DNA from: a virus
Virus record (IMG/VR): IMGVR_UViG_3300025141_000900
Location: 1-21,673 of that record
Direction: 5' to 3' (one strand)
Length of the DNA stretch: 21,673 bases
In this document: positions 1,211-7,458 of the stretch, piece after piece
Layout: the number at the start of each line of letters is the position of its first letter
Position numbering within the stretch: the stretch's first letter is position 1
Notes under the pieces: model-generated
What the model was told of the DNA's origin: nothing
Seen by the model: only the letters and a program-made list of their open reading frames with translations
Database searches by the model: none
Made by a program: the position numbers and the translations under genes

Positions 1211-1227
1211 CGGACATATTCTGTCCG
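1211..1227. promoter_or_regulatory. Operator-like inverted repeat CGGACATATTCTGTCCG
   Basis: This is a perfect inverted repeat with six-base arms around a five-base centre, and one further pair outside (C1210/G1228). It lies 16 bases upstream of a -35 box. Near-identical 17-mers occur at 2234-2250 and 2871-2887, also just upstream of promoters. The shared sequence and placement point to a common regulator, probably a dimeric repressor or activator encoded outside the window. A transcription terminator is less likely because no T-run follows. Confidence 0.6.
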
Positions 1228-1243
1228 GAGCTTATAAAAAGAT

Positions 1244-1271
1244 TTGACAGATCTCCAGAACCGGTTATATT
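1244..1271 (+). promoter_or_regulatory. Sigma70-like promoter TTGACA-N16-TATATT
   Basis: The -35 is a perfect TTGACA (1244-1249); the -10 is TATATT (1266-1271) after a 16-base spacer. It should start transcription near 1278, about 20 bases before the ATG at 1300, and drive the 109-residue gene and possibly the membrane protein after it. Confidence 0.7.
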
Positions 1272-1299
1272 ACCAATACATTCAAACAACGAGGTCTTA

Positions 1300-1629
1300 A
1301 TGAACACCAATCCTATCCTTAATCTTGAAGAGCAACTCCTTAACAGCCGACTATGGGATGCTCGCATGCTGTTGAAGGATCAACAAGAGATGCACCGTTG
1401 CACTATAGATACATGGGACACGATCCTTCAGATCATTGACGCTCTCGAAGCTCTCCAGCCTCAACCAGAGACTGGCTATCTCACCAGAGATCAGGCTGCT
1501 GACTTGTTGGGTAATGACGCTTACATTCATGTCGATGACTATGAAGATCTCGAAGCGGTATCTCACTCAATGAGGCGAGTCTATTATATCGTGGGCCGCA
1601 ATGGTCACAGCGATATGTATCTCGGCTAG
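1300..1629 (+). CDS. Hypothetical protein, 109 aa
   Basis: I place the start at ATG 1300 because it has a GAGG six bases upstream and follows a good promoter. A longer in-frame reading from 1156 would begin upstream of the promoter and run through the repeats and operator. The product starts MNTNPILNLEEQLLNSRLWD, is mostly helical (residues 6-50), and has an acidic middle (LGNDAYIHVDDYEDLEAV) and a short C-terminal segment SMRRVYYIVGRNGHSDMYLG. No membrane segment or known motif is visible. It is not recognised. The stop is followed by a 43-base G-free tract, then the next gene. Confidence 0.75.
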   Translation: MNTNPILNLEEQLLNSRLWDARMLLKDQQEMHRCTIDTWDTILQIIDALEALQPQPETGYLTRDQAADLLGNDAYIHVDDYEDLEAVSHSMRRVYYIVGRNGHSDMYLG

Positions 1630-1672
1630 TCCCTACCTCCCTACTCCCCTACACCCCTTAACACTTACCTAC
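1630..1672 (+). other. G-free C-rich tract after a stop codon
   Basis: No G occurs in these 43 bases, and roughly half are C. Comparable tracts follow the stops at 614, 2155 and 3658. C-rich, G-poor unstructured RNA is the known signature of Rho loading sites, so this may be a Rho-dependent terminator; as the next gene follows with no visible promoter, it may equally be only an unstructured leader. CCTACGGAAA (1668-1677) repeats 1198-1207. Confidence 0.35.
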
Positions 1673-1681
1673 GGAAACTTT

Positions 1682-2155
1682 ATGTCCACATTTGATACTC
1701 TCACCATTCTCTTCTTCTCCTTCTCAAACCTTGTTGCTCTTGGTTTTGGCCTTGCACTCTTTAAGGACGGTATCCACCACCTTGTGGTTCAGCGTGACGC
1801 TGAGGGCCTGTTCCCTCTCCTAGCTGGCTTCCTCTGCTTGGTTATGGTCGCTTGCACCCTTGGACTGGGCTATGGAGTTCTTGCAACTCCTGCTCTGCTT
1901 GGAGCTACTATCTGCGACTGGGACATGAAGATGAAAGTCAAGCAGCTTCTCAAAGAGGGCAAGATCTATGACTACTCTCTTAGAGAGGCCACAAACGACG
2001 CTCATCAGATGGCCAACGAGTTTCATTGCCGAGCTTTCGTTATCGATGTTGATGGCACTGGTGATTTTGATGTAGTGCTTGCAGCCCCAGACGATAACAC
2101 GCTCATTATGCGAGTCGTATGGCCTTACAAGTGGGTTACAGATGCAAAGAGCTAA
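1682..2155 (+). CDS. Small membrane protein with two or three TM segments and a cytosolic C-domain, 157 aa
   Basis: The start is ATG 1682; a weak GGA (ACGGAAAC) precedes it. An in-frame upstream ATG at 1601 lies inside the previous gene and has no ribosome site. Residues 5-27 (LTILFFSFSNLVALGFGLAL) and about 42-74 (FPLLAGFLCLVMVACTLGLG, then more hydrophobic residues) look like membrane helices. The C-terminal 80 residues are soluble and acidic-basic mixed, with helix DWDMKMKVKQLLKEGKIYDY and a beta-like end (CRAFVIDVDGTGDFDVVLAA). The function is unknown. An inner-membrane accessory protein acting during infection is possible, but this is inference. Confidence 0.75.
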   Translation: MSTFDTLTILFFSFSNLVALGFGLALFKDGIHHLVVQRDAEGLFPLLAGFLCLVMVACTLGLGYGVLATPALLGATICDWDMKMKVKQLLKEGKIYDYSLREATNDAHQMANEFHCRAFVIDVDGTGDFDVVLAAPDDNTLIMRVVWPYKWVTDAKS

Positions 2156-2174
2156 CCCACTCTTTCACACCATT

Positions 2175-2190
2175 ACTTAACAAAACTATA
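2175..2190. repeat. Third copy of ACTTAACAAAACTATA
   Basis: It matches 16 bases of the pair at 1134-1186 exactly. It lies in the gap after the membrane-protein gene, 43 bases before the operator-like repeat at 2234. Confidence 0.6.
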
Positions 2191-2233
2191 TGACTCTCAC
2201 AACCGAGCAGGCGAGAAAGAAAAAAAGTTTGTT

Positions 2234-2250
2234 TGGACATTTTATGTCCG
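2234..2250. promoter_or_regulatory. Operator-like inverted repeat TGGACATTTTATGTCCG
   Basis: GGACAT-TTT-ATGTCC is a perfect inverted repeat. Over 17 bases it shares the GGACA/TGTCC arms and spacing of the element at 1211-1227. It ends eight bases before the -35 box at 2259, so a bound protein would touch or neighbour RNA polymerase. Confidence 0.65.
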
Positions 2251-2258
2251 TTTTAAAA

Positions 2259-2287
2259 TTGACAATCTCCTCAAAATCGATTATATT
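2259..2287 (+). promoter_or_regulatory. Sigma70-like promoter TTGACA-N17-TATATT
   Basis: TTGACA (2259-2264) and TATATT (2282-2287) are separated by the ideal 17 bases. The expected start is near 2294, giving a leader of about 19 bases that contains the ribosome site AAGGAG before ATG 2313. Confidence 0.8.
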
Positions 2288-2312
2288 ATATACATCAAGC
2301 AAGGAGCTTACT

Positions 2313-2879
2313 ATGAAAAACGACTTTTCAATCACCATCAATCCTCTCTTTATCGGTTTCGTCACAGAGCGTTCAGTGTTTCGTGAGAGCCCAGTCAAGG
2401 GCCGCAGAGGCTATAAGTATGTCGCAATCTGGGAAACCCCATGGGGAAAGAAGCATGGTGTCTATGATGCAACCCCAGATTGCGAAGAGGAGCTTGAGCG
2501 ATTGAGAGCAAAGCCTCTAGCTCGGGCTATGGTTGCACTTGAGAAAGCACAAGCTCGATATGACGCTATGTATGACGGTATGACCTATGAAGAGGAGGTT
2601 ATCAAGTATGAGACTCCTTATCCTCAGATCCCAACCGCTCGACGAGCTATTATGTCACCACGATATGAGCGAGCAAAGCGTGAGAGATTAATCTTAGAAC
2701 AGGCTCTTCAGCAGGTTAGAGGCAAGATCCACAATGTTGTATCAGCTTATCAAGAGAGAGACTACAAGACAGCTACCGGTTGTCTATTCGATCTCAATCA
2801 GTGGTATCTCTCTCTTTGCTCGGTAGCTCGTCCAGAGCACCACAAGGTAGAACTTAAAAAAAATAAAAAGCGGTCATAA
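2313..2879 (+). CDS. Hypothetical protein, 188 aa
   Basis: The start is ATG 2313, with AAGGAG about seven bases upstream and a strong promoter before it. The in-frame ATG at 2190 is upstream of that promoter and operator and has no ribosome site. The N-terminal 55 residues look beta-rich (FSITINPLFIGFVTERSVF, then RRGYKYVAIWETPWGKKHGV). Residues about 60-150 are helical and charged, likely coiled coil (ARAMVALEKAQARYDAMYDG, RAKRERLILEQALQQVRGKI). The end is strongly basic (KVELKKNKKRS). No known domain is evident. The basic tail could bind nucleic acid, but that is a guess. Confidence 0.8.
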   Translation: MKNDFSITINPLFIGFVTERSVFRESPVKGRRGYKYVAIWETPWGKKHGVYDATPDCEEELERLRAKPLARAMVALEKAQARYDAMYDGMTYEEEVIKYETPYPQIPTARRAIMSPRYERAKRERLILEQALQQVRGKIHNVVSAYQERDYKTATGCLFDLNQWYLSLCSVARPEHHKVELKKNKKRS

Positions 2880-2887
2880 TCTGTCCG
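2871..2887. promoter_or_regulatory. Operator-like inverted repeat CGGTCATAATCTGTCCG
   Basis: This is the third and least perfect copy (five of six arm pairs; T2874/T2884 is the mismatch). It overlaps the stop codon of the preceding gene and ends seven bases before a -35-like TAGACG, almost the same distance as at 2234-2259. Confidence 0.5.
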
Positions 2888-2894
2888 ATAAAAA

Positions 2895-2923
2895 TAGACG
2901 ATTACTTTAAACTATGTTATATT
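2895..2923 (+). promoter_or_regulatory. Sigma70-like promoter TAGACG-N17-TATATT
   Basis: The -10 TATATT (2918-2923) is identical to those of the two other operator-linked promoters. The -35 (2895-2900) matches four of six bases of TTGACA at the ideal 17-base spacing. It leads to ATG 2953 through AAGGAG. Confidence 0.55.
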
Positions 2924-2952: not shown

Positions 2953-3261
2953 ATGAAAGCAAGGAACTTTATGCGAAAGCGAGTAGCCGCTAAGACATCC
3001 CAAGAAATGACCGCATCTGCGTGTCGTCTCGACCGCTTAGGCGGACAACGGTTTCCAACCGACACCGGCAATGAGAAGCTTAATAATCTCAACGCCCGAT
3101 TGAACACACTCAACGAAGGACTTGAGGAGCTAGCAGTTGAGCTTCTTGACAATACAACCGACCAGCCAGCGAGCTATTACAACGGCTCTCTGAAGCAGCT
3201 TAACGCTGAGGAAGCTGCTCTTATCAAGGCAGAGATTGAGGCAGAGATGCCCAATGCCTAG
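2953..3261 (+). CDS. Hypothetical protein, 102 aa
   Basis: ATG 2953 follows AAGGAG (2942-2947) at five bases. An upstream in-frame ATG at 2914 overlaps the promoter and is rejected. The N-terminus is strongly basic (MKARNFMRKRVAAKTSQ). Residues 35-65 form a likely amphipathic or coiled-coil helix (KLNNLNARLNTLNEGLEELA). The C-terminus is an acidic helix (LNAEEAALIKAEIEAEMPNA). The function is unknown. The family is not recognised. The basic-to-acidic layout would fit a small nucleic-acid or protein-binding factor, without direct proof. Confidence 0.75.
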   Translation: MKARNFMRKRVAAKTSQEMTASACRLDRLGGQRFPTDTGNEKLNNLNARLNTLNEGLEELAVELLDNTTDQPASYYNGSLKQLNAEEAALIKAEIEAEMPNA

Positions 3262-3340: not shown

Positions 3341-3658
3341 ATGCCTTCAACAATCACTAACTCAACCGCTCACAATGGAGCTTTCATTGTCACTCATTCA
3401 GATGGTGCTCAAGTATCCTGTCACAACCTCCCCACTGCTCAGGTAGAAGCTGGGGTTCTAGTTCTCTCTTCTTATCAAGACTCGGAGCCAGAGCAGTTGA
3501 CCATTGAAGAATATTATGGCTGTGAGCTTGGTGGCTTTGGTCGTCACACTCCAGCTATCACTTGGACTATCACCGGCAGAGTAGAACGCTGTCACAACTG
3601 GGCAACCGCTCGGACAATCGTTAACGAAAATGAAAAGTTTCGTTCCAAGCTGAGTTAG
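3341..3658 (+). CDS. Hypothetical protein, 105 aa
   Basis: I choose ATG 3341 because CGGAGCTTAT directly precedes it, matching the ribosome-site context of its neighbours (GGAGCTTA or GGAGCTAA before ATG). An alternative in-frame ATG at 3254 would add a hydrophobic 23-residue leader (MPSIFISSFIIYTLACFTIH), which could act as a signal or anchor, but it has no good ribosome site and overlaps the previous stop. The mature-looking part is beta-rich (NGAFIVTHSDGAQVSCHNLP) with an acidic centre (YQDSEPEQLTIEEYYGCELG) and ends WATARTIVNENEKFRSKLS. Three cysteines are present. The family is not recognised. Confidence 0.7.
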   Translation: MPSTITNSTAHNGAFIVTHSDGAQVSCHNLPTAQVEAGVLVLSSYQDSEPEQLTIEEYYGCELGGFGRHTPAITWTITGRVERCHNWATARTIVNENEKFRSKLS

Positions 3659-4584: not shown

Positions 4585-5148
4585 ATGTTAATTTTATCAT
4601 TATTATGGGGGTGTTTCAACCTAGGATTGGATGATTCCGGGCCCACTGTAAAGGCGATGAAGCCAATTCCGGAACCAAGCCCAATTTATTGGGAAGCTTG
4701 CTCATATCAGCTAGGCGATCACATATGTGATTTTACATATGCCAACGCAGACAACACCACGACAACACTCTACGATCATTATGGAAAGATTGTTGTTATA
4801 GATTACTTTACAGAGTGGTGTCCATACTGTCGTCAGGCAGCAGAAAACGTCGACTATTATATCGACGAAGACACAGACATGCTGTCTGTGATGCTTCAAA
4901 ACCAATGGGGTAATGCCCCAAGAATTGAAGACACCGAACGGTGGGCTTCTGTTTTCGAGCTTGAGCCTGAAACAGTGTTAGCCGCTGGGGATTACATCAA
5001 GGATCCCAACGCCGAGTGGGGTCCGGACTTGCAAGCATATCCAAGTTTCATTATCATTGACAAGGATATGATAATAAGAGAGAAAGTCATGGGGTGGTCG
5101 TTAGACATAATGCAAGATCTTCTTGCCGATATAAAATCTGAGGAATAG
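4585..5148 (+). CDS. Thioredoxin-fold (TlpA/ResA-like) lipoprotein, 187 aa
   Basis: Residues 66-95 (GKIVVIDYFTEWCPYCRQAA) carry the redox motif W78-C79-P80-Y81-C82 of thioredoxin-like proteins. The matching cis-proline is P153 in QAYPSFIIIDKD. The domain is complete for the family (about 140 residues). The N-terminus, MLILSLLWGC, reads as a lipobox with acylated C10, giving an exported, membrane-anchored thiol oxidoreductase. The signal is unusually short and lacks a basic n-region. Two further cysteines (C39, C48) precede the core. The start at 4585 has AGGGAGG seven bases upstream; ATG 4581 is out of frame and gives 17 codons. The neighbour downstream has the same LWGC lipobox style. A role in disulphide chemistry at the cell surface is likely; why a phage carries it is unknown. 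Confidence 0.85.
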   Translation: MLILSLLWGCFNLGLDDSGPTVKAMKPIPEPSPIYWEACSYQLGDHICDFTYANADNTTTTLYDHYGKIVVIDYFTEWCPYCRQAAENVDYYIDEDTDMLSVMLQNQWGNAPRIEDTERWASVFELEPETVLAAGDYIKDPNAEWGPDLQAYPSFIIIDKDMIIREKVMGWSLDIMQDLLADIKSEE

Positions 5149-5170
5149 TTATTAATGGAGGGTGTGGTGG

Positions 5171-6145
5171 ATGTTCATTGTTTTGTTTTTATGGGGGTGT
5201 TGGTCTGACCAAGGTCTGACTCACGAAGTTATTAAAGAAGTTGAGGTTGTTGTTTACGATACCGCCTACGTCGAAGTCGAAGTGGAAGTTGAGGTGGAGG
5301 TTGAAGTAGAGGTGGAAGTCCTTGTGCCTGAACGATATCCACTCTGGGTTCAATCGATCGTCCAACCGAAGCTTGTGAATGGAATCGATATTCTCTGGAT
5401 TGTCGACCCTTCTGGGTCAATGATGAACGATATGCCTCGTGTTGCTGATGGCGTAGCACAAATGATGAACGCTTTGCCTGTTGATGTATTTTGGAGACTT
5501 GAGATCCTTTCCACCGATTACGTTCAAGCGATCAATATGGCATCTTTTCCTTTGTTGCCGGGGGATTCCGATCTTGATGCGCAAAACCAATTAAACAATA
5601 ATGTTTCGGGCTATCGCGAAGGAGGTCTTGAAGCTGCTAACTTCTTTATGTCGCAAAACATTGATGCCTATCAATGGTTACGAAGTGACGCGGCGCTGTT
5701 GATTGTGTTTGTTTCGGACGAAGATGACCGAAGCACCGGATTAAATTCTCAAGCATTTATCGATTGGGTTCGCTTAATGAGAGAAACAATTTATGTTACG
5801 GCGATCGTAAATCAAGATATTACCATAAGTGAATGCCCGGGAACCTTTAGTGCCGTTAATGATGTAGGTAATGAGTACATGGATGTTGCAAATTTTTTTG
5901 GCGGCGTTATAATCGACATATGTTCCGAGGATTGGACTCAAGGTGTAGCTCAAGCATCAAGCCAACTGCAACTGGTTGAGGAAATCAAACTCGATTATGT
6001 TCCTGTTTCCGATCAACACATTGAAGTGTTCGTCGATGGCACAATATGGACCGATTGGACTTTTGATGTTCTAACAAATATTATAACCTTCACTGTGGTC
6101 CCTCCGGAAGAATCTCTGATAGAAGTGGTATACAATTACCTGTAG
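5171..6145 (+). CDS. vWA-domain lipoprotein with (Val-Glu)8 repeat, 324 aa
   Basis: ATG 5171 follows GGAGGG by eight bases; a GTG at 5162 is in frame but overlaps that site. The N-terminus MFIVLFLWGC is a lipobox (C10). Residues 34-49 are eight Val-Glu pairs, probably a rigid strand-like spacer. A von Willebrand A domain follows (about 68-260): IDILWIVDPSGSM carries the MIDAS DxSGS motif (D79, S81, S83), and VFVSDEDD (around 181-186) is typical of vWA lipoproteins in Myxococcota and relatives. The last 50 residues form a beta-type domain (HIEVFVDGTIWTDWTFDV, ending EVVYNYL) that also accompanies those bacterial proteins. It should bind a divalent metal and a protein or surface ligand outside the inner membrane. 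The family resemblance suggests capture from a bacterial host. Confidence 0.85.
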   Translation: MFIVLFLWGCWSDQGLTHEVIKEVEVVVYDTAYVEVEVEVEVEVEVEVEVLVPERYPLWVQSIVQPKLVNGIDILWIVDPSGSMMNDMPRVADGVAQMMNALPVDVFWRLEILSTDYVQAINMASFPLLPGDSDLDAQNQLNNNVSGYREGGLEAANFFMSQNIDAYQWLRSDAALLIVFVSDEDDRSTGLNSQAFIDWVRLMRETIYVTAIVNQDITISECPGTFSAVNDVGNEYMDVANFFGGVIIDICSEDWTQGVAQASSQLQLVEEIKLDYVPVSDQHIEVFVDGTIWTDWTFDVLTNIITFTVVPPEESLIEVVYNYL

Positions 6146-6174: not shown

Positions 6175-7458
6175 ATGAAAATAAAAATTATAAAGACCAT
6201 CAATGAATCGAATGATCCTTTTGCTGCGGCAATGAGGCATTTGGGTGGCGATGAGGGGCTTAGCGATCCTGACTTGAGTGATGACGGTAGTGTCGATGCT
6301 ACGATGCCTCTAGCAGGCTCAGAGGGTGCCCCTAAGACAGCAGGACAGCTAGCAAGAGAAAAGGCAGAAGAGCTTGGGTTCAAACTTGTGAAGCCTCTTG
6401 GAGAGGGAAAATACGGAAAGGTATATCTGATATCGAAACCAAATCATAACTTAGCTCTTAAAGTTGTTTCTCACATGGCCCAAAGAGAAGTCGAAAATTA
6501 CGAAACAGTTTCGAATGCAAGAAGTCAGAGTGAAAACATAGCAAAACATTTTCCGAAAGTATTTCATACATCTTTAGATGGCGATAATGGTTTCATAGTT
6601 ATGGAGTTGTTAACAGATTCTGGTGTTGAGTCAATGGTTATATCAGACCTAGTAGGTGATGGTGAAATGATTGTTCCACTAGAGCAAGATCAACCTTACA
6701 AAAACCTCAGAAAGAGGATGTATATGTATTTGAGAAACACCTCTGTGAGACGAAGACTACTAAGCAACATGTTTTCATTAACATTTGCAAACGATGATGT
6801 TCGTGACAAGATAGGTGATGCTCTAGAGTATAGACTTGGACCAGATTTTGGGGTTGAGTTCTTGAAAAGCCGTTCAATTGCTGGGAAGTTTAATCAAATT
6901 AAACAACTGGAAGATAAGGCTTCTTCTTTATTGGATTCTAATACTTTAAGCTATGTCTTTGATCGCAGTGGTTCTTTGAAAGATGAGTTCATTGCTAATC
7001 CCGGAGCCCTTACTTTTCTTTTGATCGCATTAGAGACTGCTAAGGAAGCAGATCCTTACGCTGGTACATACCAAAGCTGGTATGAAAGGACCGTAGTTGA
7101 CGCTACAAATCAGTTTATGAGTTTCTATAGGAGGGCTACACCAGTACCATACCATTACGGAGAGCAGAGACCCCAATATGCGGGCGCAATGCCCCAAGAT
7201 GCTGATGTTTATTCAGATGCAACTTCATTAAGAACCGCTATGCAAGAGCTAGTCGAAATAACTGGGTTATTTGCGAGAGATGTACATGGTGGAAACGTTA
7301 TGGTAAGACCTGAGACTGGAGATCTAGTGATCGTTGACTTAGGACTTTTCAAAAAACGAAAAGAAATGACTTATGAAGAGAAGAAAAGGACACGGAAGAA
7401 GACAAAAGGTTCCAAGCCAGTGAAATATCTTAGGCTGTTTACTAAGAAACGATCCTAA
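6175..7458 (+). CDS. Atypical protein kinase with a large insertion, possibly packaged, 427 aa
   Basis: The N-lobe is clear: glycine loop LGEGKYGKVY (G76, G78, G81), lysine in LALKVV (K96), glutamate in REVENYE (E105 or E107) and hinge FIVMELL (E144). The catalytic loop ARDVHGGNVMV (D369, N374, with the normal five-residue spacing) and VIVDLG (D388) come only about 220 residues later. All catalytic positions are present, so it is probably active. Between hinge and loop lies a long helical insertion (about 150-360), while only some 37 basic residues follow the DLG. The C-lobe is thus rearranged or reduced. MKIKIIKTINE before S12 fits a T4-type prohead-protease site (I-N-E/S), which would fit packaging and injection, as with T4 Alt. 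Substrate is unknown; an aminoglycoside-kinase-like relative is an alternative. Confidence 0.8.
   Translation: MKIKIIKTINESNDPFAAAMRHLGGDEGLSDPDLSDDGSVDATMPLAGSEGAPKTAGQLAREKAEELGFKLVKPLGEGKYGKVYLISKPNHNLALKVVSHMAQREVENYETVSNARSQSENIAKHFPKVFHTSLDGDNGFIVMELLTDSGVESMVISDLVGDGEMIVPLEQDQPYKNLRKRMYMYLRNTSVRRRLLSNMFSLTFANDDVRDKIGDALEYRLGPDFGVEFLKSRSIAGKFNQIKQLEDKASSLLDSNTLSYVFDRSGSLKDEFIANPGALTFLLIALETAKEADPYAGTYQSWYERTVVDATNQFMSFYRRATPVPYHYGEQRPQYAGAMPQDADVYSDATSLRTAMQELVEITGLFARDVHGGNVMVRPETGDLVIVDLGLFKKRKEMTYEEKKRTRKKTKGSKPVKYLRLFTKKRS

Follow-up and report, generated by a model that had tools for sequence, protein, structure and literature searches.

A series of 17-bp palindromes, each placed just upstream of an early-type sigma70 promoter, fairly probably represents the operators of one dimeric activator in an uncultured marine clade of the T4 superfamily. 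The window, i.e. the whole stretch of 21,673 bases that was analysed, is an IMG/VR virus record from which the bulk of the phage genome is absent. It contains three of the palindromes, which a sequence-only reading of this DNA had already noticed. Judged from the sequences of related phages, the pattern is far larger than first noted and takes the form of arrays of up to ~28 copies across a phage branch. The array points to a protein that would switch on (or off) a large set of small phage genes in concert.

The three 17-bp sites in the window were located by a sequence scan at positions 1211 - 1227, 2234 - 2250 and 2871 - 2887, in agreement with the sequence-only reading, and each precedes a sigma70-type promoter. 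The entire record contains no other exact core sites than those at 1212, 2235 and 2872. A search for YGGWCATWWTMTGTCCG that allowed up to three mismatches gave eight strand-matches, comprising the three sites on both strands and a degenerate site at 1672, again on both strands. Shuffled sequence gave a mean of 0.65 matches and 3 in the highest shuffle, so that a chance origin is very unlikely. The earlier claim that each repeat lies upstream of a -35 box, with TATATT as the -10 box, was borne out, the gaps between operator and -35 box being 16, 8 and 7 nt for sites 1, 2 and 3, respectively.

Operator 1, CGGACATATTCTGTCCG (1211 - 1227), is centred ~59 bp before the start predicted from the -10 box. 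It is followed by promoter 1 (TTGACA-16-TATATT, 1244 - 1271), by a 109-aa ORF (1300 - 1629) and by a 157-aa ORF (1682 - 2155), which is probably the second gene of the same unit because no operator is present between the two ORFs. Operator 2, TGGACATTTTATGTCCG (2234 - 2250; predicted centre ~-52), precedes promoter 2 (TTGACA-17-TATATT, 2259 - 2287) and a 188-aa ORF (2313 - 2879), for which a pattern search plus tblastn found no relatives in IMG/VR. Operator 3, CGGTCATAATCTGTCCG (2871 - 2887; predicted centre ~-51), overlaps the 3' end of this ORF. Its palindrome is imperfect, with one mismatched arm pair (T-T at the fourth arm position). Promoter 3 (TAGACG-17-TATATT with TG before the -10 box, 2895 - 2923) is followed by a 102-aa ORF (2953 - 3261) and a 105-aa ORF (3341 - 3658), which are probably co-transcribed. 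All these promoters and ORFs are on the + strand. The genes behind the operators had been described as unrecognised, and most have indeed no family match (Pfam, PHROG), including all the ORFs listed here. The 105-aa ORF is the final gene ahead of a region conserved among relatives. The window holds the last three units of a larger operator array.

Positions 790 - 1011, closely upstream of operator unit 1, encode a short protein with a DUF7417 match that is related to genes within the arrays of four other records. An AhpC/TSA thioredoxin-like protein (4585 - 5148) and a (VE)n-repeat protein (5162 - 6145) each have a lipoprotein-like N-terminus ending in WGC.

Scanning IMG/VR for GGACA-N5-TGTCC followed by TTGACA matched many contigs, among which a group of large records shares the layout of the window; several of these records contain more than one copy. 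Whole-record counts of GGWCA-N5-TGWCC are 17 in G001, 22 in G004, 18 in G006, 20 in G007, 28 in G010, 18 in G011 and 17 in G012, compared to 2, 0, 0, 1, 0, 0 and 0, respectively, for the reversed pattern. The sites of the large relatives are packed in one ~20-kb region of small unrecognised genes. In G007 (191 kb) they occupy 6.8 - 24.9 kb, apart from one isolated site at 111.8 kb, and in G011 they form a block at 151.3 - 165.3 kb. A ribosome-binding site and an ORF of at least 40 aa are found within 200 nt of the -10 box at 146 of 154 oriented sites (median distance 36 nt). The arrangement shown by these predicted units is one operator per transcription unit, nearly always directly before the promoter and start codon. 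The sequence-only reading had staked its regulon on the motif not being scattered at random in the genome and on related phages conserving it before their promoters. The motif is clustered before promoters and start codons and is also conserved, with 206 core sites in 15 records, so that the idea survived. The literature searched contained no match to the operator motif strings, and the T4 late promoter, TATAAATA, showed no enrichment over its reversed pattern. The early regions of the arrays L122-L133 contain numerous paralogues of two kinds, CCHC zinc-knuckle proteins and short MKVGDLV-type proteins, as well as an AAA ATPase beside a DUF2201 metallopeptidase/VWA-like protein.

A T4 gp23-type capsid protein is encoded by G001, G006, G007, G009, G011 and G012, and a match to a late sigma factor (E 2e-4) was obtained for G007; together, these features place the array phages in the T4 superfamily. 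The nearest isolates by capsid (~42-45% identity) are Flavobacterium phage immuto, Microcystis phage Mel-JY01 and Rhodothermus phage RM378, and these three genomes contain zero operator sites. In a midpoint-rooted tree of a single gene, PhoH, the window falls inside a clade of 14 rows with support 100/100, and 12 of the 14 rows carry the array. The two array-less rows, G025 and G026, stand for fragments that resemble the window only from ~4521 and ~5449 onwards, past the array. Thus the array is present in 12 of the 12 records of the clade that reach the region. On the opposite side of the tree, comprising 12 rows, more than one site is found in G009 only (5 sites). The array-less relatives include the long records G045 (185 kb), G038 (183 kb), G043 (172 kb), G056 (166 kb) and G032 (163 kb).

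The consensus of 169 sites is C-GG-W-CA-(A/T)5-TG-W-CC-[T/G], in which GG, CA, TG and CC were imposed by the search pattern and the remaining positions were free. The spacing between the 17-mer and the -10 box has three peaks, at 21/22, 30/31 and 41/42 bp, each roughly a helical turn from the next. If the -10 box is taken as -12 to -7, the operators would be centred at ~-42, -52 and -62 relative to the predicted starts. In a stricter set of 85 sites, for which the two strands together offer a single -10 candidate, the Rayleigh R at a 10-bp period is 0.78. Because copies within one genome are not independent and may inflate the raw statistics, the data were reduced to 41 distinct genome-distance pairs, for which R is 0.615 (p ~2e-7). 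Some sites are off the peaks, namely operator 1 of the window (~-59) and several sites of G010 (L127).

The quality of the -35 box varies with the position of the operator. The match averages 4.25/6 at -42 compared to 6.0/6 at -62, and the -42 class differs from the other two classes with a Mann-Whitney p of 8e-5. The -35 box of the -42 promoters is often degraded, e.g. to TTGACT, TCGACA or TGGACT, whereas TTGACA is present in 11 of 11 promoters of the -62 class. At ~14 array promoters of G011 (L128), TACCCA is found in the -35 place, directly after the operator. The operators are thus helically phased upstream of the -35 and -10 boxes, and the -35 box is weaker where the operator abuts it, as at class I and class II operators. 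Such phasing and weakening would be expected of an activator that contacts RNA polymerase on one face of the helix.

We suggest that one sequence-specific dimeric factor binds the operators and controls the early-type sigma70 promoters across the clade. The factor would occupy the same face of the DNA as RNA polymerase and activate it. At ~-42, it would overlap the edge of the -35 box in a class II-like manner and compensate for a poor -35 sequence. At ~-52 and -62, it may act through the alpha-CTD or another surface of the polymerase, in a class I-like manner. The factor itself might be encoded by the phage, as a product that escaped recognition, or belong to the host, as a regulator exploited by the phage.

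Apart from activation, the operators might bind a repressor, of phage or host origin, that sits beside the -35 box and shuts the early promoters off during infection or holds a latent state. This is unlikely, but by no means negligible. Many promoters of the -52 and -62 classes are close to the consensus and would be active on their own; their perfect TTGACA means that they may need no activator. The A-tract centre of the site is positioned where the alpha-CTD would bind, and a bound repressor could compete with this domain. In its form, a 17-bp palindrome around a centre of 5 bp, the site is similar to lambda-type operators. However, the sites are upstream of the -35 box and not over the core promoter, and helical phasing out to -62 combined with a weaker abutted -35 box is a signature of activation.

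A 115-aa protein encoded by the phage itself (11251 - 11598, + strand) was considered as the reader of the operators. The top 25 PDB matches of its predicted fold (pLDDT 73) are all Fis or Fis-type DNA-binding domains, although the E-values are weak, and its profile finds Fis at E 0.17. It could act in the same way as Fis does at class I and class II promoters. Fis-type dimer sites are 15 bp long, with G/C edges and an A/T-rich centre of 5-7 bp (PMC3711457), and the logo of the 169 sites has the same form. The protein is encoded by all large array-bearing relatives, and its middle part is strongly conserved (LTLEEIIALKLE...NNKLYNFP). Its recognition helix, however, is variable, while the operator is conserved: the residue aligned by eye to Arg85 of Fis is K, E, P, T, Q, I or Y. 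Furthermore, the gene is equally present in array-less relatives of 150-185 kb. The protein is therefore a weak candidate, and we infer, if only weakly from these comparisons, that it is unlikely to read the operator; as an explanation of the arrays it is quite improbable.

Other candidate regulators were sought in both phage and host. None of 2054 ORFs encodes a clade-wide classical HTH protein, which is a weak negative because the weight matrix was crude. Among the tested genes that distinguish array-bearing from array-less genomes (tblastn, Pfam), there is no DNA-binding family except an HNH endonuclease. A protein at the array edge, G007_6369_6776, was considered as an Arc-like ribbon-helix-helix protein and rejected on its full sequence and homologues. 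A scan of the genomes of 84,980 species for the operator with a sigma70 promoter found no coherent host regulon. It gave 20 scattered matches before unrelated genes against ~4 expected from a rough uniform-base estimate, and it is blind to a host activator that acts at weak promoters. The sequence-only reading had proposed a phage-encoded regulon of small genes under one regulator. The regulon and its single regulator are supported, but the phage origin of that regulator is no more than a possibility, given that no clade-specific classical HTH gene was found and the Fis-fold protein fits poorly. The reader may come from the phage or from the host.

The palindrome could also act as RNA. PeSLs (promoter-early stem-loops), as described for T4-like phages (cited in PMC4503421), combine a stem-loop repeat with an early promoter where small ORFs are shuffled. 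In such a cassette, the palindrome would be a stem-loop that terminates the preceding gene, and the whole would serve as a recombination module. Here too, a repeat capable of forming a stem-loop directly precedes a strong sigma70-like promoter of early type among shuffled small ORFs; the 17-mers fold at ~-5 kcal/mol, and site 1 of the window folds well. The base pairing, however, is not that of an RNA stem. The W positions of the two arms pair at a frequency of 0.675 compared to 0.639 expected if they were independent, and this near independence is seen in every distance class. An A-A or T-T mismatch interrupts the stem in one third of the sites, and in every distance class the rate is close to what independence predicts. 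The centre is anti-complementary (0.11 against 0.31 expected, and 0.20 against 0.49 expected). Independent choices of W and an anti-complementary centre indicate that a DNA shape, an A- or T-tract, is kept rather than an RNA stem. A run of T, with at least six T among the 9 nt that follow, is present at 32 of 169 sites only, the scanner called no + strand terminator at the window sites, and in the commonest distance class the -35 box follows directly. The helical phasing of the distances is a further argument against this reading, which is already largely refuted by the mismatch statistics and must be considered very improbable. It is scarcely credible that the A-tracts at -42, -52 and -62 merely attract the alpha-CTD as UP elements, with the GC arms incidental, since the recurring and phased part of the site is the arms GG-CA/TG-CC, which the alpha-CTD is not known to read, and the early-type promoters of array-less relatives lack these arms. 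What speaks for it is the A5/T5 tract at the centre and the description of T4 early promoters as UP/-35/TGn/-10 promoters (PMC2988021).

Related elements are found in other lineages. In twelve contigs of a different marine phage type, CGGACA-N5-TGTCCA is positioned at a fixed 17 nt before TTGACA, upstream of a gene for a YqaJ-type recombinase; the arms are kept and the flanks partly changed. The operator precedes a YqaJ-type recombinase gene in L013, L035, L055, L066, L083 and others. The array-less G051 (L443, L444) has eight copies of CTTGAC-N5-CTTGAC, compared to 0.03 expected, just before early-type promoters, and the array-less G043 (L436) has two. These tandem repeats have an 11-bp period and are reminiscent of OmpR/PhoB-type boxes. 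Another element, ATCATTGA, is found 12-15 nt before TTGACA at five promoters in G056 and four in G045 (e.g. L432, L433, L434), the raw counts of 6 and 5 each including one likely coding match. G035 (L441) contains four copies of TGAGAATNNTTCTCA, at 6298, 6333, 6484 and 8212, which looks like a Fur-box-type 7-1-7 palindrome. Given these small counts, and because the boxes were picked out by eye, the replacement of operators between lineages is put forward as a hypothesis. Tentatively, the whole early accessory region might be one activator-dependent regulon of ~10-28 promoters, in which related lineages have swapped the upstream element for others. If so, lineages would differ in the wiring of their entire early programme, which perhaps was changed to suit the regulators of different hosts.

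The clade-wide operator array provides a testable handle on the possible joint switching of dozens of small early-type genes and a way to delimit the early-type gene set in uncultured phages. It possibly provides a link to a host signalling protein as well. The tri-modal helical phasing makes the mechanism of activation testable.

Several known systems share some of these features. Lambda CI at OR2/PRM, CRP and Fis at class I and class II promoters bind palindromic dimer sites near -42 or whole helical turns upstream. The operators described here are similar in position and form, but they occur as arrays of 10-28 promoters in large phages of the T4 superfamily. Cyanophage Pho boxes, which are read by the host PhoB and demonstrate that phages can exploit host regulators (PMC10976474), are likewise operators on phage promoters; they match a known host box, whereas the motif of the arrays had no counterpart regulon in the scan of 84,980 species. 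The PeSLs of T4-like phages have in common with the arrays an inverted repeat and an early promoter in a region of gene shuffling, but the mismatch pattern and the phasing suggest a DNA operator here and not a terminator hairpin. T4 early promoters are also strong sigma70 promoters before small ORFs with A-tracts upstream, but conserved palindromic arms are not described in T4. Furthermore, T4 early promoters require no viral factor (PMC6024815), and the activator proposed here would depart from this model of early promoters that need no added factor. The T4 middle promoters, which depend on the MotA box and AsiA, are similar in that one element is repeated before tens of sigma70 -10 promoters in a phage of the same superfamily and can substitute for a poor -35 box. 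The MotA box, with its centre at -30, takes the place of the -35 box (PMC2988021), whereas the element of the arrays is a 15-17-bp palindrome at -42, -52 or -62 that ends at or upstream of the -35 box, which is usually kept.
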